Origin: Arthrobacter pascens
Lineage (GTDB): Bacteria; Actinomycetota; Actinomycetes; Actinomycetales; Micrococcaceae
NCBI RefSeq assembly: GCF_030815585.1
Contig: NZ_JAUSWY010000001.1
Coordinates: 2,108,001 to 2,172,000 of the forward strand
DNA length: 64,000 bases
Direction of reading: 5' to 3'
The translations under genes were made by a program, and so were the position numbers. The notes under the pieces are model-generated. The model searched no databases. It saw only the letters and a list, made by a program, of their open reading frames with translations, and was not told the DNA's origin. Numbering within the stretch: the first letter of the stretch is position 1; each line of letters opens with the position of its first letter. Below, in pieces: positions 13,149 through 26,020 of this stretch.

Positions 13149-14522
13149 TCAGTGACTGGATGCGCGGACCGCGTTGTTGAAGAGTGGCGTCCGGACGATC
13201 AGCATGATGGCGGCGGCTGCCAGCGGCAACACGGTTACCTGCAGCAGGCCGGCTCCCTGCCAGCCGACGCTTGGCACCAGCGCCGCGAACAGCAGGCCGG
13301 AAAAGGCGGCCGATCCGTAGTAGCACGTGACGAAAAGACCGGCGGCCCGCCCCACCTGGTGCGGACGGACTGCCCGCTGGATGGCACTGTTCATGTTGGG
13401 GAAGAAGACGCCGGTACCGAACACACCCATGAGGCCGGCGAAGACGCACTGCCAGGCGAACGACGCCTGGACCTGGTAGATCAGCACACCGAGGACCGCC
13501 ATCACCACCAGGGAAACGATCAGCAGGGTCCTCTGGTTGATCCGGTCCCCGATCCAGCCGCCGAGCAGGCCGGCCAGGCCTCCCAGACCCACGAAGCTCA
13601 GCGCCACTGCGGACTCTCCGGTGGAAATGCCCAGTTGAGTAGTCAGGAAGGTGGGGTACAGGCCCAGGAATCCGTACAGGGCGATGGAGCCGCAGCCGGC
13701 GGCCGCGGCAATCGCCAAGGAGTTACGGTTGTAGGCCTTTTCCGGCATGTAGTCGTAGGATCCTTCGACGCCGGTCAGGCTAATCGCCCGCTCGGTGAAT
13801 TTGCGGCTGACAGCGAACGCGACCACCACTGCGAGCAGCAGCCCGAGTACTCCGAAAATCATAAAGGGGGCCCTCCAGGTTCCGAACTGGCCGGCGAACA
13901 TGATGCCAAGGGCCGGCCCGAAGGTTGCACCCAGGCCAAATGCGAAGCCTAATATGCCCAGGGCGAGGCCCCGGCGGAGGTGGAAGAAGGCACCGACCGC
14001 GGCGAACAGCGCTGCGGCCTGCATCCCCTCACCCAGGCCCGAGATGATTCGATACACGGCCATGTCGGCCCACGAGGAGGCAAGTGGCGTGGCCAGTGTG
14101 CCCAGGGAGTAGATCACAATGCTGACTATCAGGACGGCTTTGCGCGAGAAGCGCTCCACCAGGAACCCTGCAGGGATGCCTGCTATGGCCATCCCCAGGG
14201 TGAAGATTGTGGCCAGCAGCCCGCCGGCCTGCAGGCTGAACCCATACTCAGTGCTGATAGTGCCCAGCAGGGGAAAGAAGACCTGCCTGTCCATCGCATT
14301 GAGCATAAACGTGATGGCCAATACCCCGAGCGACACGGCAGCAACGACCTTGGTGGGCATGCCCTCGGGGTTGTCCTTCACCCGTGATGGTGCCGGGCTG
14401 GACGGAATCGCATCCATGGAAATGGCGTCCATGGGCTCAGGGTAGGTGGGCACGGCAGGCCCGGCGGCAGATCCAGCTGTAGCCGGGGCTTGGCCTGCGC
14501 TGGAAGGGGTCGAGTGGGACAT
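13149..14522 (-). CDS. MFS transporter, probable organic-acid uptake
   Basis: 457 residues with twelve predicted membrane helices and the MFS loop-2 signature (GIPAGFLVERFSRKAVL). The first about 55 residues are a hydrophilic Ala/Pro/Ser-rich tail containing a repeated MDAI motif. The start at 14522 is supported by TAGGAGACAAAG. It is the first gene of the leftward operon and lies downstream of a LacI-operator promoter (14750-14783), giving a predicted untranslated leader of about 225 bases. A carboxylate or aromatic acid substrate is inferred only from the downstream CoA-transferase. Confidence 0.85.
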   Translation of the reverse strand: MSHSTPSSAGQAPATAGSAAGPAVPTYPEPMDAISMDAIPSSPAPSRVKDNPEGMPTKVVAAVSLGVLAITFMLNAMDRQVFFPLLGTISTEYGFSLQAGGLLATIFTLGMAIAGIPAGFLVERFSRKAVLIVSIVIYSLGTLATPLASSWADMAVYRIISGLGEGMQAAALFAAVGAFFHLRRGLALGILGFAFGLGATFGPALGIMFAGQFGTWRAPFMIFGVLGLLLAVVVAFAVSRKFTERAISLTGVEGSYDYMPEKAYNRNSLAIAAAAGCGSIALYGFLGLYPTFLTTQLGISTGESAVALSFVGLGGLAGLLGGWIGDRINQRTLLIVSLVVMAVLGVLIYQVQASFAWQCVFAGLMGVFGTGVFFPNMNSAIQRAVRPHQVGRAAGLFVTCYYGSAAFSGLLFAALVPSVGWQGAGLLQVTVLPLAAAAIMLIVRTPLFNNAVRASSH

Positions 14523-14749: not shown

Positions 14750-14783
14750 GTGCTAACGATAGCACGCACGGTCCGCGAGTCAA
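14750..14783 (-). promoter_or_regulatory. LacI-type operator overlapping promoter of the leftward operon
   Basis: The 16-bp operator GTGCTAACGATAGCAC occupies 14750-14765. On the minus strand TTGACT (14783-14778), a 16-base spacer and TATCGT (14761-14756, inside the operator) form a promoter reading toward the MFS gene. Occupancy would occlude the -10 element, implying repression. Confidence 0.75.
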
Positions 14784-14820: not shown

Positions 14821-14854
14821 TTGACTGCCAGCAGAGGAGTGCTATCGTTAGCAC
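14821..14854 (+). promoter_or_regulatory. LacI-type operator overlapping promoter of the regulator gene
   Basis: Mirror arrangement of the leftward promoter: TTGACT (14821-14826), a 16-base spacer and TATCGT (14843-14848) lying within operator GTGCTATCGTTAGCAC (14839-14854). It predicts negative autoregulation of the LacI gene. The two operators are 89 bases apart centre to centre, a distance at which looping is possible. Confidence 0.75.
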
Positions 14855-15009
14855 CAGTACTAGGCGACGCCGGCTTGTTTTGAGCCCCTGTACCAGGAAC
14901 TCATATGGACTGGCGCGATAGGGATGGCATGCAGGCCAGGCCACATCAGTACACTGATCCCAGCCCGGTTCCCGGTAGTATCCGCTTACCGGCTTGCACA
15001 GGAGGAACG

Positions 15010-16041
15010 ATGGTCACGACCAAGGATATCGCTGTACATCTGCAGCTGTCGGTCTCCACAGTGGGCCGGGCGCTGGCCGATGACGCGCGTATCAGTGACC
15101 AGACCAAGGCACGGGTCCGCCAGGCAGCTTCCGAGCTGGGATACGTAGGCAATCACGCTGCCCGAATGATGCGCGGGGCTCCCAGCAACGTCGTAGGGCT
15201 GGTCATCCCTGACATTCGGAACAGTTTCTACTTCACCATTGCCCATGAGCTGTCCGCGATCATGGCCGGTGAGGACTATCAGTTGATGCTGGCCGAGACA
15301 TTCGATGACCGCCTCATTGAGAGGCGCCACCTTCGCGAGCTGTCGGCGAGCCACGCGGCAGGTGTTGTTATTGCCCCCACCCCCAATCCACACAGCGATT
15401 CGATCAATATGCTGAGCGGAATGCCGCACGTCCAGCTGCTGCGCAAGCATTCATCACTGGGTGCCCAGTGGTTCGGCCTGGACGACCGCCGGGCGCTCAA
15501 GGATGCCACCACGCACCTGCTGGATCTCGGCCACTCCCGGATCGCCTATATCGGAGCGCCTGCCGACCTGCCCACTGGCCGGGAGCGGCTCGAAGGCTAC
15601 AGCCAGGCCTTGCGCGAAAACAACGTCCCGCTACGCGCCCATCTGATCGAACTCGGCCCGCCGGCGTCTCCCGAGCACGCCCGGGAGGCCATGCGCCGGT
15701 TACTGAACCGATCCAGCCCGCCAACCGCCGTCGTCCTTGGCTCCGTCCTTCACACTGTGGGCGTGCTGGATGGATTACTGGAGATGGACGTCGACGTTCC
15801 TACGGAACTGTCCGTGGTGGGCTTCGGTGATCAAAGCGGTTTCTCCTGGTGGGGGCCTGGCCTGACTACCGTCAGCCTGCCCATCGGCGATGTGGCCACC
15901 TCCTGCGGCCTTTGGTTCATTCGCCGGCTCAACAATCCGCCCGCCGGGAATGACCCCTACGAGTCCGCGTCGGTGGGCTGGCTGGTGCCACGGGGCAGCA
16001 CTGCTGCACCTCCCGCGGCATCGCGCGAGCGCTCCGCCTGA
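15010..16041 (+). CDS. LacI-family transcriptional regulator of the catabolic block
   Basis: 343 residues from the ATG at 15010, chosen because ACAGGAGGAACG lies directly before it and the DNA-binding helix-turn-helix (VTTKDIAVHLQLSVSTVGRAL) then begins at residue 2, as in LacI proteins. A longer frame from 14905 only adds a nonconserved tail. Residues about 60-320 are the periplasmic-binding-like ligand domain (NVVGLVIPDIRNSFY, VVGFGDQSG). Five matching operators are found in this block (14750, 14839, 16094, 19528, 19648), two flanking its own promoter region. The effector is unknown. A LacI-type repressor is unusual for an aromatic or CoA-ester pathway. Confidence 0.9.
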   Translation: MVTTKDIAVHLQLSVSTVGRALADDARISDQTKARVRQAASELGYVGNHAARMMRGAPSNVVGLVIPDIRNSFYFTIAHELSAIMAGEDYQLMLAETFDDRLIERRHLRELSASHAAGVVIAPTPNPHSDSINMLSGMPHVQLLRKHSSLGAQWFGLDDRRALKDATTHLLDLGHSRIAYIGAPADLPTGRERLEGYSQALRENNVPLRAHLIELGPPASPEHAREAMRRLLNRSSPPTAVVLGSVLHTVGVLDGLLEMDVDVPTELSVVGFGDQSGFSWWGPGLTTVSLPIGDVATSCGLWFIRRLNNPPAGNDPYESASVGWLVPRGSTAAPPAASRERSA

Positions 16042-16090: not shown

Positions 16091-16112
16091 ACGGTGCTAA
16101 CGATAGCACCGT
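16091..16112 (+). promoter_or_regulatory. LacI-type operator before extradiol dioxygenase gene
   Basis: The 16-bp core GTGCTAACGATAGCAC (16094-16109) sits inside a longer palindrome whose outer arms ACGGTGCTA and TAGCACCGT match perfectly. It ends 25 bases before the dioxygenase start. No clear -35/-10 pair was found here, so it may act as a downstream block. Confidence 0.7.
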
Positions 16113-16136: not shown

Positions 16137-17138
16137 ATGCTGCCACCGGTCGATCTACGTCCGCCGTTCAACATCACCCGAACCAGCCACCTGCGCCTGA
16201 ATGTGGCTGACCTTGCCGCGAGCCGTGATTTCTACACCACGGTCCTCGGCCTGGTGGTGACCGAGGAGGACCACTCCACGGTCTACCTGCGTGGCCTCGC
16301 GGAGGCCTGTCACCACAGCCTTGTGTTGGAGAAGAGCACCGACGGCGGCACCGCCCGCCGGATAGGATTCCGCGTCTTCTTCGAAGAGGACCTGGACGAG
16401 GCCTACCGCTACTTTCGTGACCGGGGGCTCCCGGCCGAGTGGGTGGACATGCCACATCAGGGCCGCACCCTGCATGTCGCAGACCCTGTCGGGACGCCGC
16501 TGGAGCTGTGCGCAACCATGGAGACCCGGCCCCGGCTGCACATCAACTTTGAGCAGTACAAAGGCGCCCACGCCCAGCGGCTGGACCACTTCCAGTTGCT
16601 CACGCCCGACGTCTACGAGTTGTGCGCTTTCTACAGCGAACTGGGCTTCCGCAACTCCGAGTACCTTGAGTACGGCGACGAACTTGTGGGCGCCTTCATG
16701 TACCGCAAGGGCACTTGCCTTGACTTGGCAATGGTGCCCGGCGACGGTCCAAGCCTCCATCACTTCGCTTACACCGTCTCCGAGAGCCATGACATCTTCA
16801 CCGCCTGCGATTTCGCCGGCATCCTGGGCTACGGCGACCAGGTGGAACGTGGTCCAGGCCGGCATGGCCCCGGCGGCATGCTCTTCGCTTACCTCCGTGA
16901 TCCGGACGGTCACCGGGTTGAGGTCTTCAACAGCCACTACCAGACAATCGATCTTGAGACCGAGCCGGTGCGCTGGGACGCCGCATCGGTGAGCACCAAC
17001 GCGCGCTGGGGACTGCCCGCCCTGGAGCAGTGGTACTTCGAGGCCTCGCCCTTCGTTGGCGCACCGCTGAAGTCCCCGGCTGTCCGTCCTGCCCCCATGA
17101 CACTGGAGAAGTTCCTGGCCAGCCCCCAACTCCCCTAA
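16137..17138 (+). CDS. Extradiol ring-cleavage dioxygenase (VOC, HpaD/MndD-like)
   Basis: 333-residue two-domain type I extradiol dioxygenase. It is similar in pattern to homoprotocatechuate 2,3-dioxygenase, including the Mn-dependent MndD described from Arthrobacter. The metal triad is visible in the C-terminal domain: His in RLDHFQLLTPD, His in SLHHFAYT, and Glu in DPDGHRVEVF. The family signature ERGPGRHG is present. It would open a catechol-type ring between a hydroxylated and a neighbouring carbon. AGGAG precedes the ATG. It starts a rightward three-gene run with a CMD-family protein and a dehydrogenase. The exact substrate is not determinable; no ring hydroxylase or semialdehyde dehydrogenase accompanies it. 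Confidence 0.87.
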   Translation: MLPPVDLRPPFNITRTSHLRLNVADLAASRDFYTTVLGLVVTEEDHSTVYLRGLAEACHHSLVLEKSTDGGTARRIGFRVFFEEDLDEAYRYFRDRGLPAEWVDMPHQGRTLHVADPVGTPLELCATMETRPRLHINFEQYKGAHAQRLDHFQLLTPDVYELCAFYSELGFRNSEYLEYGDELVGAFMYRKGTCLDLAMVPGDGPSLHHFAYTVSESHDIFTACDFAGILGYGDQVERGPGRHGPGGMLFAYLRDPDGHRVEVFNSHYQTIDLETEPVRWDAASVSTNARWGLPALEQWYFEASPFVGAPLKSPAVRPAPMTLEKFLASPQLP

Positions 17139-17197: not shown

Positions 17198-17740
17198 ATG
17201 TCCCGAGTTCCCTCCCTGTCCCGCGATGACGCCGTCTCGGTCCACCAGCAGCCGCTGTGGGACCGCATCGAGGCGGAGCGCAAAATGCCCACCGCGAATA
17301 TCTTCCGCTCTCTGGCGAACGCCCCGGTCCTGCTCGACGCGTTCCTCTCCTATGCCAACGCCATGCGTGACAGCTCCCTGCTGAGCCCCAAGCTGCGGGA
17401 GCTGGCCATCCTGTCCGTGGGCCATGCCACCGACTCTGAATATGAGATCGCGCACCACCAGTCACATGGCCGCAAAGCCGGACTCACGGATGAGCAGCTT
17501 GCTGCAGTGGCCGACGGCACCAGCACTGAGCTGTTCAATGACGCCGAACGCGCCGTGATAGCGCTGGCACGCGAATCCACCGTCAACGTGAATGTGTCCG
17601 ATGAAAGCTGGGCGGCCGCAGCCAAGCACCTCGATGACCAGCAGATGGTGGAGCTCACGCTGACCATCGCCTGGTACAACTCAGGCGTACGGGTGATGGG
17701 CCTGCTCGGCATCGAACTCGAGGACAGCTACCGCAAGTAG
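17198..17740 (+). CDS. Carboxymuconolactone decarboxylase (CMD/AhpD-like) family protein
   Basis: 180-residue all-helical protein of the CMD family. The core SPKLRELAILSVGHATDSEYE followed by AHHQSHGRKAGL is recognisable, but the AhpD-type Cys-x-x-Cys redox pair is absent, so a thiol peroxidase role is unlikely. Acid/base chemistry on a lactone or keto acid, as for gamma-carboxymuconolactone decarboxylase relatives, is possible. GGAG lies nine bases before the ATG. It is encoded 59 bases after the dioxygenase and most likely acts on that enzyme's product line. Confidence 0.75.
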   Translation: MSRVPSLSRDDAVSVHQQPLWDRIEAERKMPTANIFRSLANAPVLLDAFLSYANAMRDSSLLSPKLRELAILSVGHATDSEYEIAHHQSHGRKAGLTDEQLAAVADGTSTELFNDAERAVIALARESTVNVNVSDESWAAAAKHLDDQQMVELTLTIAWYNSGVRVMGLLGIELEDSYRK

Positions 17741-17796: not shown

Positions 17797-18906
17797 ATGG
17801 CGACGATGCGCGCAGCCAGACTGCACAAGATCGGCGATCCGATGTCGATCGACATCATCGAAGTACCCAAGCCCCGACCCACCGACGTACTGGTCAGGGT
17901 CAAGGCCGTCGGCATTGTGCCGAACATGGCCAACGTGATCAACAACTGGCCCACCTGGTTTCCGCACCAGCCCATCCCCAATTTTCCGGCGATCTTCGGG
18001 CTTGATCCCACCGGAGTGGTGGAAGAGGTCGGAGAGTCCGTCATCAACGTCAAACCCGGAGACCGGGTATACGTCAGCCCACTCCGCTCCTGCGGCAGCT
18101 GCTACGCCTGTTCGGGGGGAACCCCCAGCCGCTGCCGCTACTACACCCTCAACGGCTATTTCAGCACGTCCCGCGATGGCCAGCGGATCTTTGATCTCTA
18201 CCCTTACGGCGGGTTCAGTGAGTTCATGACAGCGCCACAGCAGGCCCTGGTCAAGATCCCCGACAACCTTCCGTTTGAGCTGGCAGCCCGTTTTGGCTAC
18301 ATTGGCACCGCTTACGGTGCGCTCCGCCTGGCAGATGCCGGACCGGGCACTGTTGGCCTCATTGACGGCATTACCGGCACCCTGGGCGTGGCTGCGACTG
18401 TGCTTTGTTTGAGCATGGGCGTTGCGAAGATCCTGGGCACGGGGCGCAACGAGGAACTGCTCCAGCGCGTGAAGGCATTGGCGCCGAACAGGATAGAGGT
18501 CATGAACCTCGGCGAGCAGTCCTCCGGAGAGTGGGCCAAGGAGCAGACACGCGGCGACGGCGCCCACTTCGTGATCAGTGCGCTCGGGGCCCGGGCGGAC
18601 GCCGCCACCATGGTGGATTCCATGCGGGGGGTCCGGCGCGGCGGTCGCGTGGTGAACGTCGGCGGAGTTGCGGATGAGGTCCCGGTGGACATGAAGTGGC
18701 TGATGGACGAGCAGGTACAGATTATCGGCTCGAACTGGTTCACAGCGGCCCAGGGCCAAGAGATGGCAGACATGATCGAGACTGGCACCTTGGACCTCAC
18801 CTACCTTGAGACCGAAGCGTTCCCGCTGTCGGACGTCAACACTGCGATCTCAGGGCGGCTGAAGGACCCGCGTGGTGGCTTCAGCAACTATGTAGTCATT
18901 CCCTAG
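17797..18906 (+). CDS. Alcohol dehydrogenase-like MDR protein lacking the catalytic zinc site
   Basis: 369-residue medium-chain dehydrogenase/reductase. The structural-zinc lobe is intact (four Cys in CGSCYACSGGTPSRC). The first catalytic-zinc Cys is missing, with VKAVGIVPNMAN in place of the usual G-x-C-G-x-D, and the following His-Glu is replaced by LDPTG. The nucleotide-binding region (LIDGITGTLGVAATV) is a modified Rossmann glycine motif. It therefore probably performs a zinc-independent reaction such as enoyl reduction. AGAAGGAG precedes the ATG. It is the last gene of the dioxygenase run and is followed by a terminator hairpin. Confidence 0.8.
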   Translation: MATMRAARLHKIGDPMSIDIIEVPKPRPTDVLVRVKAVGIVPNMANVINNWPTWFPHQPIPNFPAIFGLDPTGVVEEVGESVINVKPGDRVYVSPLRSCGSCYACSGGTPSRCRYYTLNGYFSTSRDGQRIFDLYPYGGFSEFMTAPQQALVKIPDNLPFELAARFGYIGTAYGALRLADAGPGTVGLIDGITGTLGVAATVLCLSMGVAKILGTGRNEELLQRVKALAPNRIEVMNLGEQSSGEWAKEQTRGDGAHFVISALGARADAATMVDSMRGVRRGGRVVNVGGVADEVPVDMKWLMDEQVQIIGSNWFTAAQGQEMADMIETGTLDLTYLETEAFPLSDVNTAISGRLKDPRGGFSNYVVIP

Positions 18907-18975: not shown

Positions 18976-19506
18976 TCAGGCGCCGGCGCCGGTGAGCACA
19001 AACGCCACCGTCGCCGGCGCCTGCGTTTTATTCCGCCAGGCATGGCGGGCGGCGAGCTGCACAATGGTGTCACCCTGCGTCAGGAGCACCTGCGCGCCGT
19101 CGTCGAGCTCCAGCCACAGCTCCCCTTCCAGCACCACTCCGTAGTCGACGCTGCGCGTGCGGTGCATGCCGTCCGGCTCGAACACCTCGGCGAGATCGGG
19201 TGCGTAGACTGCCATCTCCTGCCCTGCGGCGCCCGGATCGAATCCCGGGCTCATCACCACGGATTCCGGTGCGTAACTCACGATCACAAAGCTTGCCCCG
19301 CCGGGCCCCGGCACCACCGGTCCATGGTTGTCGGTGGGCTCCGCCTCGGGCGGCGAGCCGGACGGCACCCCCGGCGTAAACCAGACCCGGACCTGAGCCT
19401 GTCCCGGCATACTTTCAAAGGCATGGCTGTTGGGCACCGGTCCGTCGGAGACGAAAACCGACTTCCCAGATCCGTCCATGCCGGTCACTACTCTGCGTAC
19501 AGTCAC
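18976..19506 (-). CDS. Cupin-domain protein
   Basis: 176 residues from a GTG at 19506, chosen because AGAGGAAGAGGA lies seven bases before it and the protein then begins MTVRRVVTG, a usual N-terminus for this cupin group. A longer frame from a TTG at 19533 would start inside the operator. The cupin core is in the last about 70 residues: MHRTRSVDYGVVLEGELWLEL and GDTIVQLAARHAWRN. One His of the first metal-binding motif and one of the second are visible. Proteins of this kind accompany aromatic and keto-acid pathways as isomerases, decarboxylases or dioxygenases; no specific reaction can be assigned. It is transcribed divergently from the FAH operon and shares its operator region. Confidence 0.8.
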   Translation of the reverse strand: MTVRRVVTGMDGSGKSVFVSDGPVPNSHAFESMPGQAQVRVWFTPGVPSGSPPEAEPTDNHGPVVPGPGGASFVIVSYAPESVVMSPGFDPGAAGQEMAVYAPDLAEVFEPDGMHRTRSVDYGVVLEGELWLELDDGAQVLLTQGDTIVQLAARHAWRNKTQAPATVAFVLTGAGA

Positions 19507-19527
19507 AAAAAAATCCTCTTCCTCTTT

Positions 19528-19570
19528 GTGCAATCGTTAGCACTATCTCTTGGTTGGGGTGAGGTGTCAA
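19528..19570 (-). promoter_or_regulatory. Cupin-gene promoter with LacI-type operator
   Basis: On the minus strand a consensus TTGACA (19570-19565), 17-base spacer and GATAGT (19547-19542) precede operator GTGCAATCGTTAGCAC (plus-strand 19528-19543; 15 of 16 bases match the 14839 site). Transcription should start inside the operator. Confidence 0.65.
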
Positions 19571-19629
19571 GAGCATGAAAGCCGCGGCTAACGCTTCCCT
19601 CCAAACCTCATGCTTTTATACAAAGCGTC

Positions 19630-19663
19630 TGGCATTTCGATGCATCTGTGCTATCGTTAGCAT
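19630..19663 (+). promoter_or_regulatory. FAH-operon promoter with LacI-type operator
   Basis: TGGCAT (19630-19635), 16-base spacer and TATCGT (19652-19657). The TATCGT lies inside operator GTGCTATCGTTAGCAT (19648-19663, 15 of 16 bases match). The arrangement is the same as at 14821-14854. The predicted transcription start coincides with the ATG at 19665, implying a leaderless message. Confidence 0.65.
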
Positions 19664-19664
19664 T

Positions 19665-20732
19665 ATGCTTGAAGAAGACACCATCGACGACGCCGTTGCT
19701 CCCGCGGGAATCGTTTTAGCCCAGGCAGGCCTCTGGGACGAAACGGCGGCCATCTGGCTGGTCCATAGCGGCCGGGCGCTTCCCCTGCAAGCGTGGGCCG
19801 GGCGCTGGCCCTGCGCCAGGTTCGCCTCAGTCACTGAGCTGATCGCTCAATGGGGCAGCATTCGCGCGGAGCTTCGACGGCTCGTCGAGCTCCCGCAGAC
19901 GTCGGCGACGATTAGCGAAGAGGGCGTTCCGGTGGCTTCGCTGCGGCTGGAGGCTCCCTTCCAGCCCACGCAGGTGTTCTGCACCATCGGCAACTACCGC
20001 CGGCAGGTCATCGAGGCCGCAGTGGATGCCGGCGACCCCGCTGAGGCCGGTCGGTTGGCGGCCGCCACCACCCAGGCGCTCAACCATCGACGCCGGAACG
20101 GCAGCCCCTACGTCTGCCTGACCAGCAACGACAGGGTCGCCCCCGCCGTCGGCGAGCTGGCCCTGGAGGCGGACGTGGACACCTTGGACTGGGAGGTGGA
20201 GATCGGTGCCGTCATCGGAGGTTCCGGCTCCCGCTTGACGCTGCCGGAGGCTGAGGCGGTGATCGCCGGCTACTGCGTGGTCAACGACCTGACCATCCGC
20301 TCCCGCATCGTCCGGCCCGACCTGCCTGCGCTGGGCTCGGACTGGCTGCAGTGCAAGGGCATGCGGGGATCGCTGCCGCTCGGACCATGGTTCGTGCCCG
20401 CCTGGCAGGTCCCCGACCCTTCCGCCTTGCGGCTTCAGCTTTCGCTCAACGGCTTGCCGATGCAGGACGACACGGCCGACGACATGGTGTTCACCATTCC
20501 CGAACAGCTGTCCTACCTGTCCCAACACACCCGGCTTCGCCCCGGAGACCTGCTCTGCACCGGCTCCCCCGCCGGGTTCGGTATCCACCACGGCCGGTTT
20601 CTGCGTCCCGGAGACACCGTGAGGGCTTCGATAACCGGGCTCGGCGAGCAGAACACCCGCTTCGTTGGTCCGAGATTTTTTCCCAGCCAATCCCACTCAA
20701 ACCTGGCCGTTCCAGGCCTGACCACTACCTAA
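19665..20732 (+). CDS. Fumarylacetoacetate hydrolase family protein (first copy)
   Basis: 355 residues if translation begins at the ATG at 19665. The frame extends upstream to 19575, but the predicted promoter and operator lie between the two starts, so the longer form would not be on the transcript. The FAH fold covers about residues 95-340: metal ligands E-x-E in LDWEVEIGAVIGG, Asp in VVNDLTIRSRI, and LLCTGSPAGFGI. The N-terminal about 90 residues are a separate domain. FAH proteins hydrolyse, hydrate or decarboxylate 2-oxo acids from ring cleavage. A second, distinct FAH gene lies in the same operon. It is the first gene of the second rightward operon. Confidence 0.85.
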   Translation: MLEEDTIDDAVAPAGIVLAQAGLWDETAAIWLVHSGRALPLQAWAGRWPCARFASVTELIAQWGSIRAELRRLVELPQTSATISEEGVPVASLRLEAPFQPTQVFCTIGNYRRQVIEAAVDAGDPAEAGRLAAATTQALNHRRRNGSPYVCLTSNDRVAPAVGELALEADVDTLDWEVEIGAVIGGSGSRLTLPEAEAVIAGYCVVNDLTIRSRIVRPDLPALGSDWLQCKGMRGSLPLGPWFVPAWQVPDPSALRLQLSLNGLPMQDDTADDMVFTIPEQLSYLSQHTRLRPGDLLCTGSPAGFGIHHGRFLRPGDTVRASITGLGEQNTRFVGPRFFPSQSHSNLAVPGLTTT

Positions 20733-20743
20733 GGAGCAGACTC

Positions 20744-21733
20744 ATGACGCTGCAGCAAACAGTCCTGCTGACAGACCGGGCCTGGCCCGACGACAGCATC
20801 GAACGCGGCATCATCGAAGACGCCGGCTTCCGTTTTGTCGCCGGCCCGGCCGACCCCGCACCAGTCGAGGCTATTAACGCACTGGTCGCAGAGCACCAGC
20901 CTGCCGCCATCCTCACCTGCTGGGCAACAGTATCCGCCGCAGCGATCGATTCCTCAGCCCCGTTGCGGGTTGTTGCCCGGATGGGCGTTGGCCTGGACAA
21001 CATCGCCGTGCCCGCGGCCACGGATCACGGCGTGCAGGTGACCAACGTTCCGGACTACTGCGTCGAGGAGGTCTCCGACCACGCCGTCGGCCTGGCCCTG
21101 GCCTGGACGCGCGGCCTGGTCGCCACCGACCGCGAGGTCCGCGCCGGACGATGGAACCCCGCCGGGGCCCGGCTTCGCCGCCTGTCCAACCTGACCTGCG
21201 GCGTTATCGGCTACGGCCGCATCGGCAGAGCTACTGCAGCCAAGCTCAAGGCGCTCGGAGCCCGCGTGGTGATCAGCGATCCGCACCCACCGGCCGACAC
21301 CGGCGGCATTGAGGCGATGACACTGGACGGCCTCCTGGCAGCCAGCGACATCGTGGTCCTCCACGCTCCCCTGGTCCCGCAGACACATCACCTGATCGGG
21401 GCCCGGGAACTGGCCCTGCTTCCGCAGGATGCCTTCCTGGTCAATGTCAGCCGCGGCGGGCTGGTCGATACCGCAGCCCTAATGGCCGCCCTGCAATCAG
21501 GCAAGCTCGGCGGAGCAGGACTGGATGTACTGGAGGAAGAGCCCACGGTTCCTGCCGGGCTACTGGCCCACCCTGGCGTGATTGTCACACCGCACATCGC
21601 TTTCGCCTCCGACGCTTCGGTGATCGACCTGCGGCGCAGCGCCGCCGAAGAAGTGGTCCGCGTCCTGCGCGGAGAACCGGCAAACTATCCCTGTAACACC
21701 CCGTCCGCCCTCGCCACAGGAGTGTCATCGTGA
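20744..21733 (+). CDS. D-isomer-specific 2-hydroxyacid dehydrogenase
   Basis: 329 residues from the ATG at 20744, supported by TAAGGAGCAGACTC. The NAD(P)-binding motif GVIGYGRIGRATAAKLKALG and the catalytic Arg (VNVSRGGLVD), Glu (LDVLEEEP) and His (VTPHIAF) are all present. It interconverts a 2-oxo acid and a D-2-hydroxy acid. It follows the FAH gene by 11 bases and its stop codon overlaps the enolase-paralog start (GTGA, 21730-21733). The order hydroxyacid dehydrogenase, enolase-like enzyme, kinase suggests a 2-hydroxy acid that is phosphorylated and dehydrated, analogous to glycerate to PEP, but the true substrate is unknown. Confidence 0.9.
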   Translation: MTLQQTVLLTDRAWPDDSIERGIIEDAGFRFVAGPADPAPVEAINALVAEHQPAAILTCWATVSAAAIDSSAPLRVVARMGVGLDNIAVPAATDHGVQVTNVPDYCVEEVSDHAVGLALAWTRGLVATDREVRAGRWNPAGARLRRLSNLTCGVIGYGRIGRATAAKLKALGARVVISDPHPPADTGGIEAMTLDGLLAASDIVVLHAPLVPQTHHLIGARELALLPQDAFLVNVSRGGLVDTAALMAALQSGKLGGAGLDVLEEEPTVPAGLLAHPGVIVTPHIAFASDASVIDLRRSAAEEVVRVLRGEPANYPCNTPSALATGVSS

Positions 21734-23034
21734 GCATCATCCGCACCGTCCACGGCCGCCAGATCTTCGATTCCCGCGGCCGCCCCACCGTCGAGGTGGA
21801 CATCATCCTCGAAAACGGTGCCAGCGCCCGGGCGTCGGTTCCCTCCGGCGCCTCCACCGGTACCCACGAGGCCCACGAACTGCGCGATGGAGACGCATCG
21901 GTTTTCGACGGCCTCGGCGTCACCTCCGCCGTCGAGCATGTGAACGGCGAGATCGCTGCGGCGCTCCACGGCCACGATGTTGACGACCAGCGGGCCATCG
22001 ACGAAAGGCTGCGGAACCTGGACGGAACCTCCACACTGTCGCGGCTCGGCGCCAACGCAGTGCTGGGAACCTCGCTGGCAGTCTGCCGCGCCTCCGCCGT
22101 GGCCAGCGGACTGCCGCTGTATCGCAGGATCGCCCAGCTCGCCGGCGTCGATGAGCCCGTGCTGCCGATGCCGATGGTCAACATCCTTTCCGGCGGCCTC
22201 CACGCGGGCCGCGGCATGGACGTCCAGGATTTCCTCGCAGTACCGGTTGCGGCAACGTCCGCGCTCGAGGCCATCCAGCTCACTTCCCGTGTCCGTGCAG
22301 CTGCCGCTGGCCTCTGTGCCGAACGGGGGCTGCCGACGCTGTTGGCCGACGAGGGCGGGCTGAGCCCGGGCTGCCGCACGGGCGAGGAAGCCCTCGAACT
22401 CATCACCGAGTCCATTCTGGCGGCCGGCCTGCAGCCCGGCACAGATATAGCCATTGCCATCGACGTCGCCGCGGCATCCCTGTACGACAGTGAGGCAGGT
22501 GACTACCACCTGCGCCGGCAGGAACGGCACCTCAGCACCGCCGAAATGATTGACATGGTGTCCTCATGGGTGGACCGCTTCGCTATCGTCTCGATCGAAG
22601 ATCCGCTCGACGAGGACGACTGGGCCGGCTGGCAGACCTTGACCAAGCGCCTCGGTCACCGGATCAGGCTGATCGGCGACGACCTGTTCACCACCAACAG
22701 CGAACGGCTCGCCCGGGGCATCTCCCAGGGAGTTGCCAACGGCGTCCTGGTCAAGGTGAACCAGAACGGCACGCTGACCGGCACCCTTGACGTGGTGGCC
22801 GAGGCGCGCGCCGCGGGTTACGCCCCGGTGGTATCAGCCCGCTCCGGGGAGACCGAGGATGACTTCCTGGCCGATCTGGCTGTGGGCACCGCAGCCGGGC
22901 AGATCAAGATCGGGTCCGTCCGGAATTCCGAGCGGCTCGCCAAGTACAACCAGCTGGTGCGCATCGCCGAGGACCCCACCCTGGGCTTCAGGAACCTGCC
23001 AGCGCTGGCCTTGACCGCGGACGGTGGCCGGTGA
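21730..23034 (+). CDS. Divergent enolase paralog in a catabolic operon
   Basis: 434 residues, full enolase length and fold, GTG start overlapping the previous stop. The metal ligands D245, E290 and D317 are kept, as are E208 (ADEGG), Lys342 (LVKVNQ), Arg371, Lys393 (GQIKIGS) and His158. Two active-site positions differ from canonical enolases. The Glu of the Q-E-F motif is Asp (VQDFLA, residue 167), and the His of S-H-R-S-G-E-T is Ala (SARSGETED, residue 370). The latter His helps bind and position the substrate and water in glycolytic enolase. The metal-site motif D-CAAS-EF is also altered (DVAAASLY). A housekeeping enolase would not normally sit between a hydroxyacid dehydrogenase and a kinase. 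This is probably a specialised dehydratase acting on a phosphorylated 2- or 3-hydroxy acid; glycolytic activity is doubtful. Confidence 0.85.
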   Translation: MSIIRTVHGRQIFDSRGRPTVEVDIILENGASARASVPSGASTGTHEAHELRDGDASVFDGLGVTSAVEHVNGEIAAALHGHDVDDQRAIDERLRNLDGTSTLSRLGANAVLGTSLAVCRASAVASGLPLYRRIAQLAGVDEPVLPMPMVNILSGGLHAGRGMDVQDFLAVPVAATSALEAIQLTSRVRAAAAGLCAERGLPTLLADEGGLSPGCRTGEEALELITESILAAGLQPGTDIAIAIDVAAASLYDSEAGDYHLRRQERHLSTAEMIDMVSSWVDRFAIVSIEDPLDEDDWAGWQTLTKRLGHRIRLIGDDLFTTNSERLARGISQGVANGVLVKVNQNGTLTGTLDVVAEARAAGYAPVVSARSGETEDDFLADLAVGTAAGQIKIGSVRNSERLAKYNQLVRIAEDPTLGFRNLPALALTADGGR

Positions 23035-24077
23035 AAGTCGCCGGACCCCAGGAGCGCGTGCAGGAGTTCCTGCTCCGCCACGGGCTGATGCAGCCTGGGG
23101 AAGAGGCGATACCGAGTCCCTTGACCGGCGGCGTGAGCTCGGACCTCTGGCAAGTGTCGCTGCCCGGCCGGATGCTATGCGTCAAGGGAGCATTGGCCCG
23201 GCTGAAGGTGGCTCACGAGTGGCTCGCTCCCCTCTCCCGCAACCGCGTTGAATACGACTGGCTGCAGTTTGCCGGAACCGTCGCTCCCACTCATGTCCCG
23301 CAGGTGCTCGCCTACGACGGGCAGGCCGGTCTGTTCGCTATGCAATTCCTCCCGCCCGAGGACTACCCAGTCTGGAAGGACCAGCTCCTCACCGGGCAGG
23401 TCGACCCGGCTGCCGCTCACGCAGTGGGCGACCTGGTCGGCAGGCTGCATTCAGCAAGCGCCAACGACACCTCGGCCGCAAGCACGTTTGCCACCGACAG
23501 CAACTTCGACGCCCTGCGCATCGAGCCGTACTTCCGGGTCACAGCCCGTGCTAACCCGGACCTGGCCGACCGGATCGAGGGCCTGGCCGCGAGGACCACC
23601 GGCACTCATCTGGCGGTGGTGCACGGCGACGTCAGTCCCAAAAACATCCTTCTCGGTCCGCACGGGCCCGTGCTGCTCGACGCCGAGTGCGCTTGGTTCG
23701 GTGACCCTGCGTTCGACGTCGCGTTTTGTCTGAATCACCTGCTGCTCAAGGCGATCATCCTGCCCGACTACACCGCGCAGCTGCACAGCTCCGCACGAAT
23801 GCTACTGGACGGCTATGCCCGCCATATTGACTGGGAACCGGGCCCGGACCTGATGGCGCGCACCGCGGCCCTGCTGCCGCTGCTCGCCCTGGCCCGGGTC
23901 GACGGAGCCTCCCCGGTGGAGTATCTGACACCTGAGCAACGCGGCCAGGTCCGCAACGCCGCGAGGGATCTGCTGGCTCGGCCGGCACTGACCCTCGACA
24001 CGGTCCTTAAGGAATGGATGCTGATGGCGGGCACTCCAGCGGCCGGCACCACTCACATGAAAGAGCAGACCAGGTGA
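23031..24077 (+). CDS. APH/choline-kinase-fold small-molecule kinase
   Basis: 348 residues, GTG start overlapping the enolase-paralog stop (GTGA). The phosphotransferase signature is complete: Lys52 (LCVKGAL), H198-G-D200-x4-N205 (VHGDVSPKNIL) and the metal-binding Asp217 (VLLDAE). The overall pattern resembles methylthioribose, choline and fructosamine-type kinases rather than antibiotic kinases. Tight coupling with the enolase paralog upstream and the FAH protein downstream (another GTGA overlap) argues that it phosphorylates a pathway intermediate. An antibiotic-resistance role is very unlikely in this context. Confidence 0.82.
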   Translation: MKVAGPQERVQEFLLRHGLMQPGEEAIPSPLTGGVSSDLWQVSLPGRMLCVKGALARLKVAHEWLAPLSRNRVEYDWLQFAGTVAPTHVPQVLAYDGQAGLFAMQFLPPEDYPVWKDQLLTGQVDPAAAHAVGDLVGRLHSASANDTSAASTFATDSNFDALRIEPYFRVTARANPDLADRIEGLAARTTGTHLAVVHGDVSPKNILLGPHGPVLLDAECAWFGDPAFDVAFCLNHLLLKAIILPDYTAQLHSSARMLLDGYARHIDWEPGPDLMARTAALLPLLALARVDGASPVEYLTPEQRGQVRNAARDLLARPALTLDTVLKEWMLMAGTPAAGTTHMKEQTR

Positions 24078-25012
24078 CATTTTCCCTGTCCACCGTTCGG
24101 ATCGACGGAGTGCCCACCCCGGTACTCCGGCTCCCGGACGGCCCCCTGTACAGACTCGCCGACGTAGCACCCGAGGTTCTTGACGCCCATCCGGCGGGCG
24201 GGCTAATGACCGTCTTCGCCAACTGGGAGACCTCCGAGCCTCGGCTGCTCGCCGCCGTCGAGACCCTCCCGGGCAGTGCGGCAGGTCCGATCCCTGAGCC
24301 GGCCGAGCCTGAGGACTGGCTGACGCCGCTGCAGTATCCGAACAAGGTCATCTGCGCCGGCGCCAACTATTACGACCACGTGGTCAACGATGGCGGTCAT
24401 ACCGGCTTTTCGAAGGAAGACAACATTCCGGTCTTCTTCCTTAAACCGCCCACCACCACGCTGGTCGGCCAGGGCAGGGCCGTCCGGTACCCCAGCCAGA
24501 CCGAGAAGTTCGACTACGAACTCGAACTGGCGTTTGTCATCGGCCGGCGCGGCCGGCACATCCCTGTGGACCGGGCCCGTGAGCACATCGCGGGCTACAC
24601 CATCGCCTTGGACCTGTCGGCCCGTGACTGGCAGCGCCATCCCAAGCACCTCGTTAAGTTCGATCTCTTCGGCGGCAAGGTTTTCGACGACAGCTGTCCC
24701 CTCGGTCCGGGCATCGTTCCGGCCCGCTTCGTCGACGACACGAACCTGCAGCTGCAGTTCTGGCTCAACGGCGAGCTGCGGCAGAATGCCAACACATCCG
24801 ACCTGATCTGGTCTGTGCCCGAGCTGGTCTCCCTGATCAGTGAGCACGTGACCCTCGAACCGGGCGACGTTGTGCTCACGGGAACTCCCGCCGGTGTGGG
24901 CCTCAGCACCGGAACCTGGATGCACTCTGGTGACCAGCTCGCGGGGCAGATCACCGGCCTTGGATCCATCAGCGTGCAGATCATTCCCGCCGACACCGAC
25001 CAACTGACCTGA
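24074..25012 (+). CDS. Fumarylacetoacetate hydrolase family protein (second copy)
   Basis: 312 residues from the GTG at 24074, which overlaps the kinase stop codon in the same GTGA arrangement used by the two preceding genes. A start at 24014 inside the kinase gene is less likely. The FAH core shows the metal site E-x-E in FDYELELAFVIGR and Asp in IALDLSARDWQ, plus VVLTGTPAGVGLSTG. It is not closely similar to the first FAH protein of this operon, so the two probably act on successive intermediates, for example hydrolysis and hydration or decarboxylation of 2-oxo acids. Confidence 0.88.
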   Translation: MTFSLSTVRIDGVPTPVLRLPDGPLYRLADVAPEVLDAHPAGGLMTVFANWETSEPRLLAAVETLPGSAAGPIPEPAEPEDWLTPLQYPNKVICAGANYYDHVVNDGGHTGFSKEDNIPVFFLKPPTTTLVGQGRAVRYPSQTEKFDYELELAFVIGRRGRHIPVDRAREHIAGYTIALDLSARDWQRHPKHLVKFDLFGGKVFDDSCPLGPGIVPARFVDDTNLQLQFWLNGELRQNANTSDLIWSVPELVSLISEHVTLEPGDVVLTGTPAGVGLSTGTWMHSGDQLAGQITGLGSISVQIIPADTDQLT

Positions 25013-25081: not shown

Positions 25082-26020
25082 ATGAAAGTAGCCATTCTGG
25101 CCCAGACCGGAACCATACCCACCTACGCAGATTTCCCTGACCCCCAGCCCCGCAGCGGCCACGTCGTCGTCGACGTCGCAGCGGCCGGGGTCCATCACCT
25201 CGACCTGGCCAAGGCATCGGGGGCGTTCGGGGAGCCCGGCACCATGCCGTACGTGATTGGGGCCGACGGTGTGGGCAAGACCGCCACTGGACGTCGCGTC
25301 TTTTTCACGTCACCGGTTTCGCCTCACGGTTCCTGGGCCGAGCGTACACTCGTCGCCGAGGAGGACCTGCTGGACCTCGCAGACGAGGTCGACGACGTTA
25401 CCGCGGCCGCGCTCGGCAACACTGGACTTGCCGCCTGGCTCGCCCTCACGTGGCGGGCCAAGCTGCAGCCCGGCCAGAACGTGCTGGTGCTGGGCGCGAC
25501 CGGTGCACTCGGATCGATCGCCGTCCAACTCGCCAAGTCCCTCGGAGCGGCAACGGTGGTCGCTGCCGACCGGGACCCCGGCCGCCTGGCCCTCTCCAGG
25601 GAGCGCGGCGCCGATGCCACCGTGAGGATCAGCCCCGACACCGACCTTGTAGCCGCCTTCCGCAACACGGTCGGTGAGCGCGGCTTCGACGTCATTATTG
25701 ACCCGGTTTGGGGAGAACCCGCCCTTGCCGCCATGCACGTAGCTGCCCGAGGCGCCCGTCATATCCAGATCGGCCAGACCGCCGGGTCAACCATCGAACT
25801 GCCTGCCGGCCTCGTCCGCGCAGCCCGCCTGGAGCTCCTCGGGTTCGCCCATATGGACCCGCCGGCACAGGTCCGCCGCGACGCCTACCTGCAGCTGACG
25901 GGGCTCGCAGCGACCGGAGCGTTGGCCGTCGATACGATGGCACTCCCGCTCGCCGACTGCCGGCGGGCTTGGGACCTGCAGCAGCAGGGCGCCCCCCGCA
26001 AGCTCGTCCTAACGCCCTAG
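25082..26020 (+). CDS. Zinc-free MDR oxidoreductase (quinone-oxidoreductase-like)
   Basis: 312 residues of the quinone oxidoreductase/enoyl reductase branch of the MDR superfamily. There are no structural-zinc cysteines, and the NADPH motif is VLVLGATGALGSIAVQLAKSLGA. CTAGGAGAAAACC precedes the ATG. It is the last intact gene of the LacI-linked block, 69 bases after the second FAH gene. It probably reduces a conjugated C=C bond in an unsaturated keto acid or ester; the actual substrate is unknown. Confidence 0.85.
   Translation: MKVAILAQTGTIPTYADFPDPQPRSGHVVVDVAAAGVHHLDLAKASGAFGEPGTMPYVIGADGVGKTATGRRVFFTSPVSPHGSWAERTLVAEEDLLDLADEVDDVTAAALGNTGLAAWLALTWRAKLQPGQNVLVLGATGALGSIAVQLAKSLGAATVVAADRDPGRLALSRERGADATVRISPDTDLVAAFRNTVGERGFDVIIDPVWGEPALAAMHVAARGARHIQIGQTAGSTIELPAGLVRAARLELLGFAHMDPPAQVRRDAYLQLTGLAATGALAVDTMALPLADCRRAWDLQQQGAPRKLVLTP

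Follow-up and report, generated by a model that had tools for sequence, protein, structure and literature searches.

Introduction

Enolase is a textbook single-function enzyme, classified in its glycolytic form as EC 4.2.1.11 (TIGR01060). In this work we analyzed a 64,000-nucleotide stretch of Arthrobacter pascens DNA, hereafter the window (RefSeq assembly GCF_030815585.1, contig NZ_JAUSWY010000001.1, positions 2,108,001 to 2,172,000), which encodes a variant enolase next to a small-molecule kinase of the APH fold. The variant has the fold, the full length, the metals and the base of the glycolytic enzyme, together with most of its active site; unlike it, the variant has Asp and Ala at positions 168 and 373 (yeast numbering, used hereafter unless stated), falls in a separate clade, is an extra copy beside an ordinary enolase, and is tied to the kinase and to a catabolic regulator. 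From the two residues tested, the clade and the context, we regard the window protein as an enolase by descent and not as a glycolytic enolase, and, judging from sequence, it is probably a dedicated, non-glycolytic partner of the kinase that acts on a 2-phospho acid.

The nearest known specialised enolase is that of the carboxyphosphonoenolpyruvate (CPEP) synthase type, likewise an enolase paralogue in a specialised role, with quite different substitutions. An example from Actinobacteria bacterium OK074 (L115), presumably a CPEP synthase, is encoded near a CPEP phosphonomutase in a biosynthetic cluster and shows S39A, E168Q and E211S, with His373 kept. No relative of the APH kinase was found by tblastn in 12 kb around this enolase, and no phosphonate biosynthesis genes such as CPEP phosphonomutase were found among the ten window cluster genes scanned. 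The OK074 phosphonate cluster itself (L115 1146-10510), whose CPEP phosphonomutase scores 672.6 bits (cut-off 420), recalls phosphinothricin biosynthesis. A second kinase-enolase pair, formed by a MOFRL/DUF4147 glycerate-2-kinase homologue and a divergent enolase, occurs in Pandoraea (L119 5575-8261) and on an Agrobacterium plasmid (L153 7986-10680); it differs from the window pair in its unrelated kinase family and in its enolase, which has H159Y, E211S and H373G and keeps Glu168.

Regarding the kinase, glycerate kinases are divided into classes I, II and III, which differ in making 2- or 3-phosphoglycerate (PMC2063504). The chemistry proposed here, 2-phosphorylation of a hydroxyacid, is the same, but the APH fold matches none of the three classes described there. 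The nearest solved fold is that of 5-methylthioribose kinase, but the window kinase scores 53.6 bits against TIGR01767, far under its cut-off of 275. In the open-access literature, as judged from listings, no description of an APH-enolase pair was found.

The variant enolase and its two substitutions

The variant matched Enolase_N and Enolase_C over its full length, scored 507 bits against TIGR01060 eno (cut-off 300) and strongly matched solved enolases, with a top score of 435 bits; MR_MLE_C, the domain of the mandelate racemase / muconate lactonizing sugar-acid dehydratases, reached 27.8 bits, below its 29.4 cut-off. The residue map (window/yeast) comprises S42/S39, H158/H159, D167/E168, E208/E211, D245/D246, E290/E295, D317/D320, K342/K345, A370/H373, R371/R374, S372/S375 and K393/K396. 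The protein thus differs from the mapped yeast catalytic residues at two places, Glu168 to Asp and His373 to Ala, and keeps S39, H159, E211, D246, E295, D320, K345, R374, S375 and K396. A first-pass annotation, made from the letters of the window, had called it a full-length enolase with its metal ligands and Lys/Glu acid-base pair intact and with two altered active-site residues, D167 and A370; the domain matches and the residue map bear out each of these statements. The same annotation held the DCAASEF metal-site motif to be changed, which is true ('ASEF' reads 'AASL') but not diagnostic, since many clade-B subfamily members keep ASEF-like text and the metal ligand D245 is kept. Residue E168 is one of four Catalytic Site Atlas residues of yeast enolase (PMC4922564). 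In summary, the features of a glycolytic enolase found in the variant are the full-length domains, the metal ligands D246/E295/D320, and K345, K396 and E211; those lacking are Glu168 together with His373, a place among the housekeeping enolases of the phylum, and being the sole enolase of the genome. A role for loop Arg161/Arg162 as binder of the substrate carboxylate was dropped, as these residues are not universal.

Both substitutions are fixed in enolases linked to homologues of the kinase. Asp168 and Ala373 occur together in 71 of the 72 full-length enolases encoded at such loci, the sole exception being L086, with Asn and Ala, while the metal ligands, Lys345, Lys396 and Glu211 are retained in all 72 (five short or unreadable enolases were excluded from this count). 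Further kinase-linked enolases carry Asp/Ala in 14 of 15 cases (10/11 plasmid-borne and 4/4 more divergent), including haloarchaea and a Bacteroidota plasmid. Conversely, Glu168 and His373 are present in 29/29 housekeeping enolases read from the own genome and relatives, copies that were picked without regard to these residues. Since 71/72 kinase-linked enolases carry both changes vs Glu/His in every housekeeping copy read, the aligned residues indicate that the substitutions are not due to chance.

In a quick tree of 105 rows, 75 variants formed one group apart from the housekeeping enolases (SH-aLRT 92); the 28 ordinary enolases were likewise separated by one label change, but on a branch with an SH-aLRT of only 35, and L115 and L119, being long-branched paralogues, were unreliably placed. 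The ordinary enolase of the own genome sat with actinobacterial enolases. The variant is therefore not placed inside the housekeeping actinobacterial enolases in this tree, a position that would have contradicted the first-pass reading, and horizontal acquisition of a housekeeping enolase was rejected on tree and residues. A degenerate or misread gene was also rejected, given an uninterrupted reading frame, residues that are fixed in both domains and, elsewhere in the genome, another enolase.

The latter is the canonical copy whose existence the first-pass annotation had proposed to check, found at G000:C1:3116947-3118170 with Glu168 and His373 and 51% identity to the variant. When 59 genomes (own plus 58 relatives) were searched, 57 matched at E 1e-100 or better, and a second, near-identical variant copy appeared in just two, the own genome and another from the same genus. 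An ordinary enolase was found in 19/19 variant-bearing genomes searched besides the own; that of one Ramlibacter genome (L146 5548-6827) is divided between two frames in the assembly. Furthermore, a known D-glycerate kinase was found in 12/12 genomes tested, of class I in three (own included) and of class II in nine. Because of these two counts, the variant enolase and its kinase do not replace glycolysis or D-glycerate use.

The partner kinase and its linkage to the enolase

The predicted model of the kinase is confident, with a pLDDT of 91.6, and among solved structures its fold comes closest to those of 5-methylthioribose kinases (TM 0.80 on the query, ~16% identity). Its catalytic motifs are invariant in an alignment of 17 homologues. 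Neither PF02595 nor PF13660 (glycerate kinase classes I and II) was found in the kinase, the domain search giving only APH and a weak TCAD9, and the phosphoribulokinase/uridine-kinase type fold of class III is likewise absent, as both the domain match and the predicted fold of the protein are of the APH type.

Genome contigs of 84,980 species were scanned with the kinase, which retrieved 131 relatives, and the best 80 loci were taken. An enolase is present in 77 of these 80 loci, the three without it being L050, L085 and L091. Enolase and kinase are directly adjacent on the same strand in 59/77 loci; in the remaining 18, from Rhizobium, Burkholderia-type and Bradyrhizobium clusters, the enolase lies within 8 kb of the kinase. 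Eight further cluster genes (LacI, VOC, CMD, ADH, cupin, FAH1, FAH2 and dehydrogenase; see Table 1) were tested per locus and counted as present above 60 bits. None of the eight exceeded that score in 35/77 loci, of which 17 are at least 15 kb long; 8 are shorter than 8 kb, and contig ends may account for some of the absences. The gene content suggests, however, that the kinase-enolase pair can stand alone. Across the 77 loci, the dehydrogenase was found in 33, FAH in 23, VOC in 23 (all with the dehydrogenase), the cupin in 23 and LacI in 17.

The kinase homologue also occurs in 32 plasmid records; 15 of them were examined, and all 15 hold an enolase homologue in the cluster. Thirteen of these 15 signatures were read, 12 of them being Asp/Ala, including those of Haladaptatus, Halomarina and Persicobacter. 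On one Rhizobium plasmid (L167 10001-12228) kinase and enolase are each matched in two frames, and the pair looks broken or badly sequenced. Within Actinomycetota the kinase is rare (3/396 genomes at E 1e-30), with an adjacent variant enolase also in the other two genomes that have it. The kinase-plus-enolase strategy that the first-pass annotation had raised as a possibility is strengthened by finding the two genes associated in different phyla and in both Bacteria and Archaea, and by the shared operator described below.

The window cluster and its predicted LacI regulon

Genes of the dehydrogenase, enolase, kinase and FAH2 follow one another with 4-base overlaps at all three junctions (Table 1), and the 2-hydroxyacid dehydrogenase, kinase and LacI regulator that had been named as neighbours at first pass are indeed there. 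Ten strand-matches to the palindrome TGCTAACGATAGCA, vs 0.93 expected, fall at five sites of the window. At one mismatch or fewer, the whole 4.73 Mb genome contains those five sites only, all within the cluster, and a reversed-control palindrome had no matches in the same genome search. Because the five operator sites flank them and occur nowhere else in the genome, the genes for MFS, LacI, VOC, CMD, ADH, cupin, FAH1, dehydrogenase, enolase, kinase and FAH2 appear to form a single 11-gene LacI regulon. Clusters of Parafrankia, Rhodococcus, Rhizobium, Burkholderia, Pandoraea, Bradyrhizobium and Sphingobium, among others, carry this operator too, with exact matches in 26/168 loci, duplicates included.

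Table 1. Genes and predicted operators of the cluster, in window positions
Feature	Position	Strand	Remarks
Variant enolase, D167/A370 (yeast E168D/H373A)	21730..23034	+	GTG start, 434 aa; start overlaps preceding stop by 4 nt
APH-fold small-molecule kinase	23031..24077	+	HGD-x3-KN and LDAE catalytic motifs kept; overlaps enolase by 4 nt
FAH-family hydrolase / isomerase (FAH2)	24074..25012	+	Overlaps kinase by 4 nt
Quinone-oxidoreductase-like gene	25082..26020	+	Downstream; cluster membership uncertain; same run in four Arthrobacter-type loci
D-isomer-type 2-hydroxyacid dehydrogenase (PGDH / glyoxylate reductase-like)	20744..21733	+	
FAH-family protein (FAH1)	19665..20732	+	Exact start uncertain; longest frame 19575-20732
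Cupin protein	18976..19533	-	Pfam 26.1, just under cut-off 27.2
Zinc-type alcohol dehydrogenase (ADH)	17797..18906	+	
Carboxymuconolactone decarboxylase-family protein (CMD)	17198..17740	+	
Homoprotocatechuate-2,3-dioxygenase-like VOC protein	16137..17138	+	Fe ligands kept; His200 position is Leu195
LacI-family regulator	14905..16041	+	Helix-turn-helix starts near residue 36; true start probably internal
MFS transporter	13149..14522	-	Weakly like aromatic acid/H+ and D-galactonate symporters, below cut-offs
Operator palindrome TGCTAACGATAGCA	14751..14764		Between MFS and LacI
Operator palindrome	14840..14853		Between MFS and LacI
Operator palindrome	16095..16108		Upstream of VOC-CMD-ADH run
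Operator, one change from palindrome	19529..19542		Between cupin and FAH1
Operator palindrome	19649..19662		Upstream of FAH1-dehydrogenase-enolase-kinase-FAH2 run

The VOC protein has Leu at the His200 position in 24/24 homologues read, with the Fe ligands kept, and is probably not an ordinary catechol dioxygenase. Given this Leu, the idea of an aromatic substrate reached via the dioxygenase-like protein was left open.

Proposed reaction and alternatives

We tentatively propose that the pair carries out a two-enzyme, ATP-driven elimination from a hydroxyacid, a reading that we hold to be quite possible though still somewhat doubtful, in which the APH kinase and an enolase with an opened C3 pocket would form a portable module of Bacteria and Archaea. 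The kinase would probably phosphorylate the 2-OH of a hydroxyacid bearing a C3 leaving group, one unusable by the D-glycerate route; with metals, Lys base and Glu211 acid as in ordinary enolases, the variant enolase would then take the C2 proton and expel the C3 group, so that phosphoenolpyruvate (PEP) or a C3-substituted PEP is formed. The 2-phospho acid would be other than D-2-phosphoglycerate, which the housekeeping enzymes already handle. We infer in this sense the 'phospho-hydroxyacid dehydratase' role of the enolase. Since the residues holding metal, carboxylate and phosphate and those handling the C2 proton are kept and the changed ones presumably lie at the C3 hydroxyl, the substrate should be altered on its C3 side: a D-configured 2-phospho acid with an extra C3 substituent or a different leaving group is our preferred candidate, with more doubt than confidence, followed by the L-enantiomer of 2-phosphoglycerate, which seems unlikely. 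Lactates carrying a leaving group X at C3, sulfolactate among them, were considered because an isomerase of the Persicobacter locus weakly matches sulfoquinovose isomerase.

The genes found near the pair in other genomes bear on the product and on the source of the substrate. The 35/77 loci with a lone pair suit a central product such as PEP. In 7/8 Rhizobium contigs the operator lies ~45 bases upstream of a PEP carboxylase gene, with dehydrogenase and kinase next in order; in the eighth (L046) the carboxylase match is shortened and this operator is missing. Together, the lone pair and this carboxylase link suggest PEP itself or a closely similar product. Three kinds of 2-ketoacid reductases recur: the 2-hydroxyacid dehydrogenase (near the pair in 33/77 loci), an IlvC-like reductoisomerase in three haloarchaeal records, encoded on the opposite strand past the enolase and cupin genes (one family-tested), and ketopantoate-reductase-like genes in ten loci, mostly of Comamonadaceae (one family-tested). 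These reductase families form D-2-hydroxyacids. Two loci are of a sugar type. That of Persicobacter comprises ALDH-kinase-enolase, a class II aldolase, a PfkB-type kinase and the isomerase, which weakly resembles L-fucose and sulfoquinovose isomerases, both under cut-off (sulfoquinovose isomerase 159 of 700 bits); that of Sinorhizobium holds lactonase-like, mannonate-dehydratase-like and FAH genes, the last scoring 368 bits against 2,4-didehydro-3-deoxy-L-rhamnonate hydrolase (cut-off 500). A kinase plus enolase as universal stand-in for a sugar-acid dehydratase is weakened, as the Sinorhizobium locus also has the mannonate-dehydratase-like gene (below the family cut-off).

Several points weigh against the proposed elimination. 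The pocket argument depends on residues 168 and 373 facing the C3 hydroxyl, as they presumably do in the yeast structures, and PEP itself as product fits poorly with an extra C3 substituent. The reductases lie near the pair only in a minority of loci, and the sugar-type loci would naturally deliver plain glycerate. The Rhizobium PEP carboxylase of the cluster (L040 6149-8899 and homologues) is the only one found in 4/4 genomes, that of L046 included, so its position may serve general anaplerosis, and in Microvirga (L050) the carboxylase is inside the cluster with no operator beside it. On an Enterobacter plasmid (L148 6193-8918) the enolase-like protein linked to an APH-type kinase has E168D, E211K and H373G. 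Finally, neighbours in unannotated contigs were called by a simple script and their identities are approximate, several being named by eye with one member each family-tested.

Among the alternatives, the salvage of L-glycerate is a special case of the proposed elimination: the kinase would make L-2-phosphoglycerate, and the enolase, rebuilt for the opposite C2 configuration, would convert it to PEP. This would account for a special enolase despite a PEP product, and the aldolase/isomerase/PfkB/ALDH set of Persicobacter and the FAH score of Sinorhizobium hint at L-sugars; the recurrent reductases, however, belong to D-forming families, and the unchanged Lys345 and Glu211 argue for ordinary C2 stereochemistry, which makes this version rather unlikely. 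A dedicated D-glycerate route, also unlikely, would make the APH kinase a D-glycerate 2-kinase of a fourth kind, with the enolase as an extra 2-phosphoglycerate enolase tolerating both changes, fed by hydroxypyruvate, glyceraldehyde or diketo acids and giving PEP. The dehydrogenase is PGDH/glyoxylate-hydroxypyruvate-reductase-like, the ALDH, FAH and reductase neighbours could all provide glycerate, the Rhizobium PEP carboxylase is under the shared operator, and a lone pair would be enough for it. Nevertheless, all genomes tested already have a known D-glycerate kinase class (12/12) and an ordinary enolase (19/19), and two housekeeping-invariant residues are changed alike across both domains, changes for which a plain gene copy would have no need. 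The loss of two active-site groups would suit a regulatory, moonlighting or degenerate enolase of little or no activity, but this reading is highly improbable in view of the catalytic residues kept in 72/72 (metal ligands, Lys345, Lys396, Glu211), the preserved kinase motifs and the strict kinase linkage.

Should the proposed elimination be right, a second type of enolase activity, widespread and served by a dedicated kinase, would exist, and through it unusual three-carbon or C3-substituted acids would enter metabolism at PEP. Automatic annotation names the variant family phosphopyruvate hydratase, and the eight annotated Asp/Ala copies whose residues were read are labeled merely phosphopyruvate hydratase or enolase; a wrong reaction would then stand in the metabolic models of haloarchaea and of numerous bacteria from soil and sea. 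The two-residue signature Asp168/Ala373 makes the family easily recognised and the claim directly testable.

In a Paracoccus record, ~15 kb separate the pair from genes annotated as a putative sulfate exporter, a hydroxyacid dehydrogenase and an Ldh-family oxidoreductase. The run of the Enterobacter plasmid mentioned above also holds a U32 peptidase, an aminotransferase and an M14 peptidase. The haloarchaeal clusters L149, L158 and L159 combine the pair with a cupin, an IlvC-like gene, many mandelate-racemase-type genes and thermosome (TCP-1/cpn60) genes. On a Rhodococcus opacus plasmid (L162 11520-16545), dehydrogenase, kinase and enolase are followed by an acyl-CoA dehydrogenase, a tetrahydrofolate dehydrogenase/cyclohydrolase, a formyl transferase and GCV_T folate-binding domain proteins, a gene set that recalls tetrahydrofolate-dependent demethylation.

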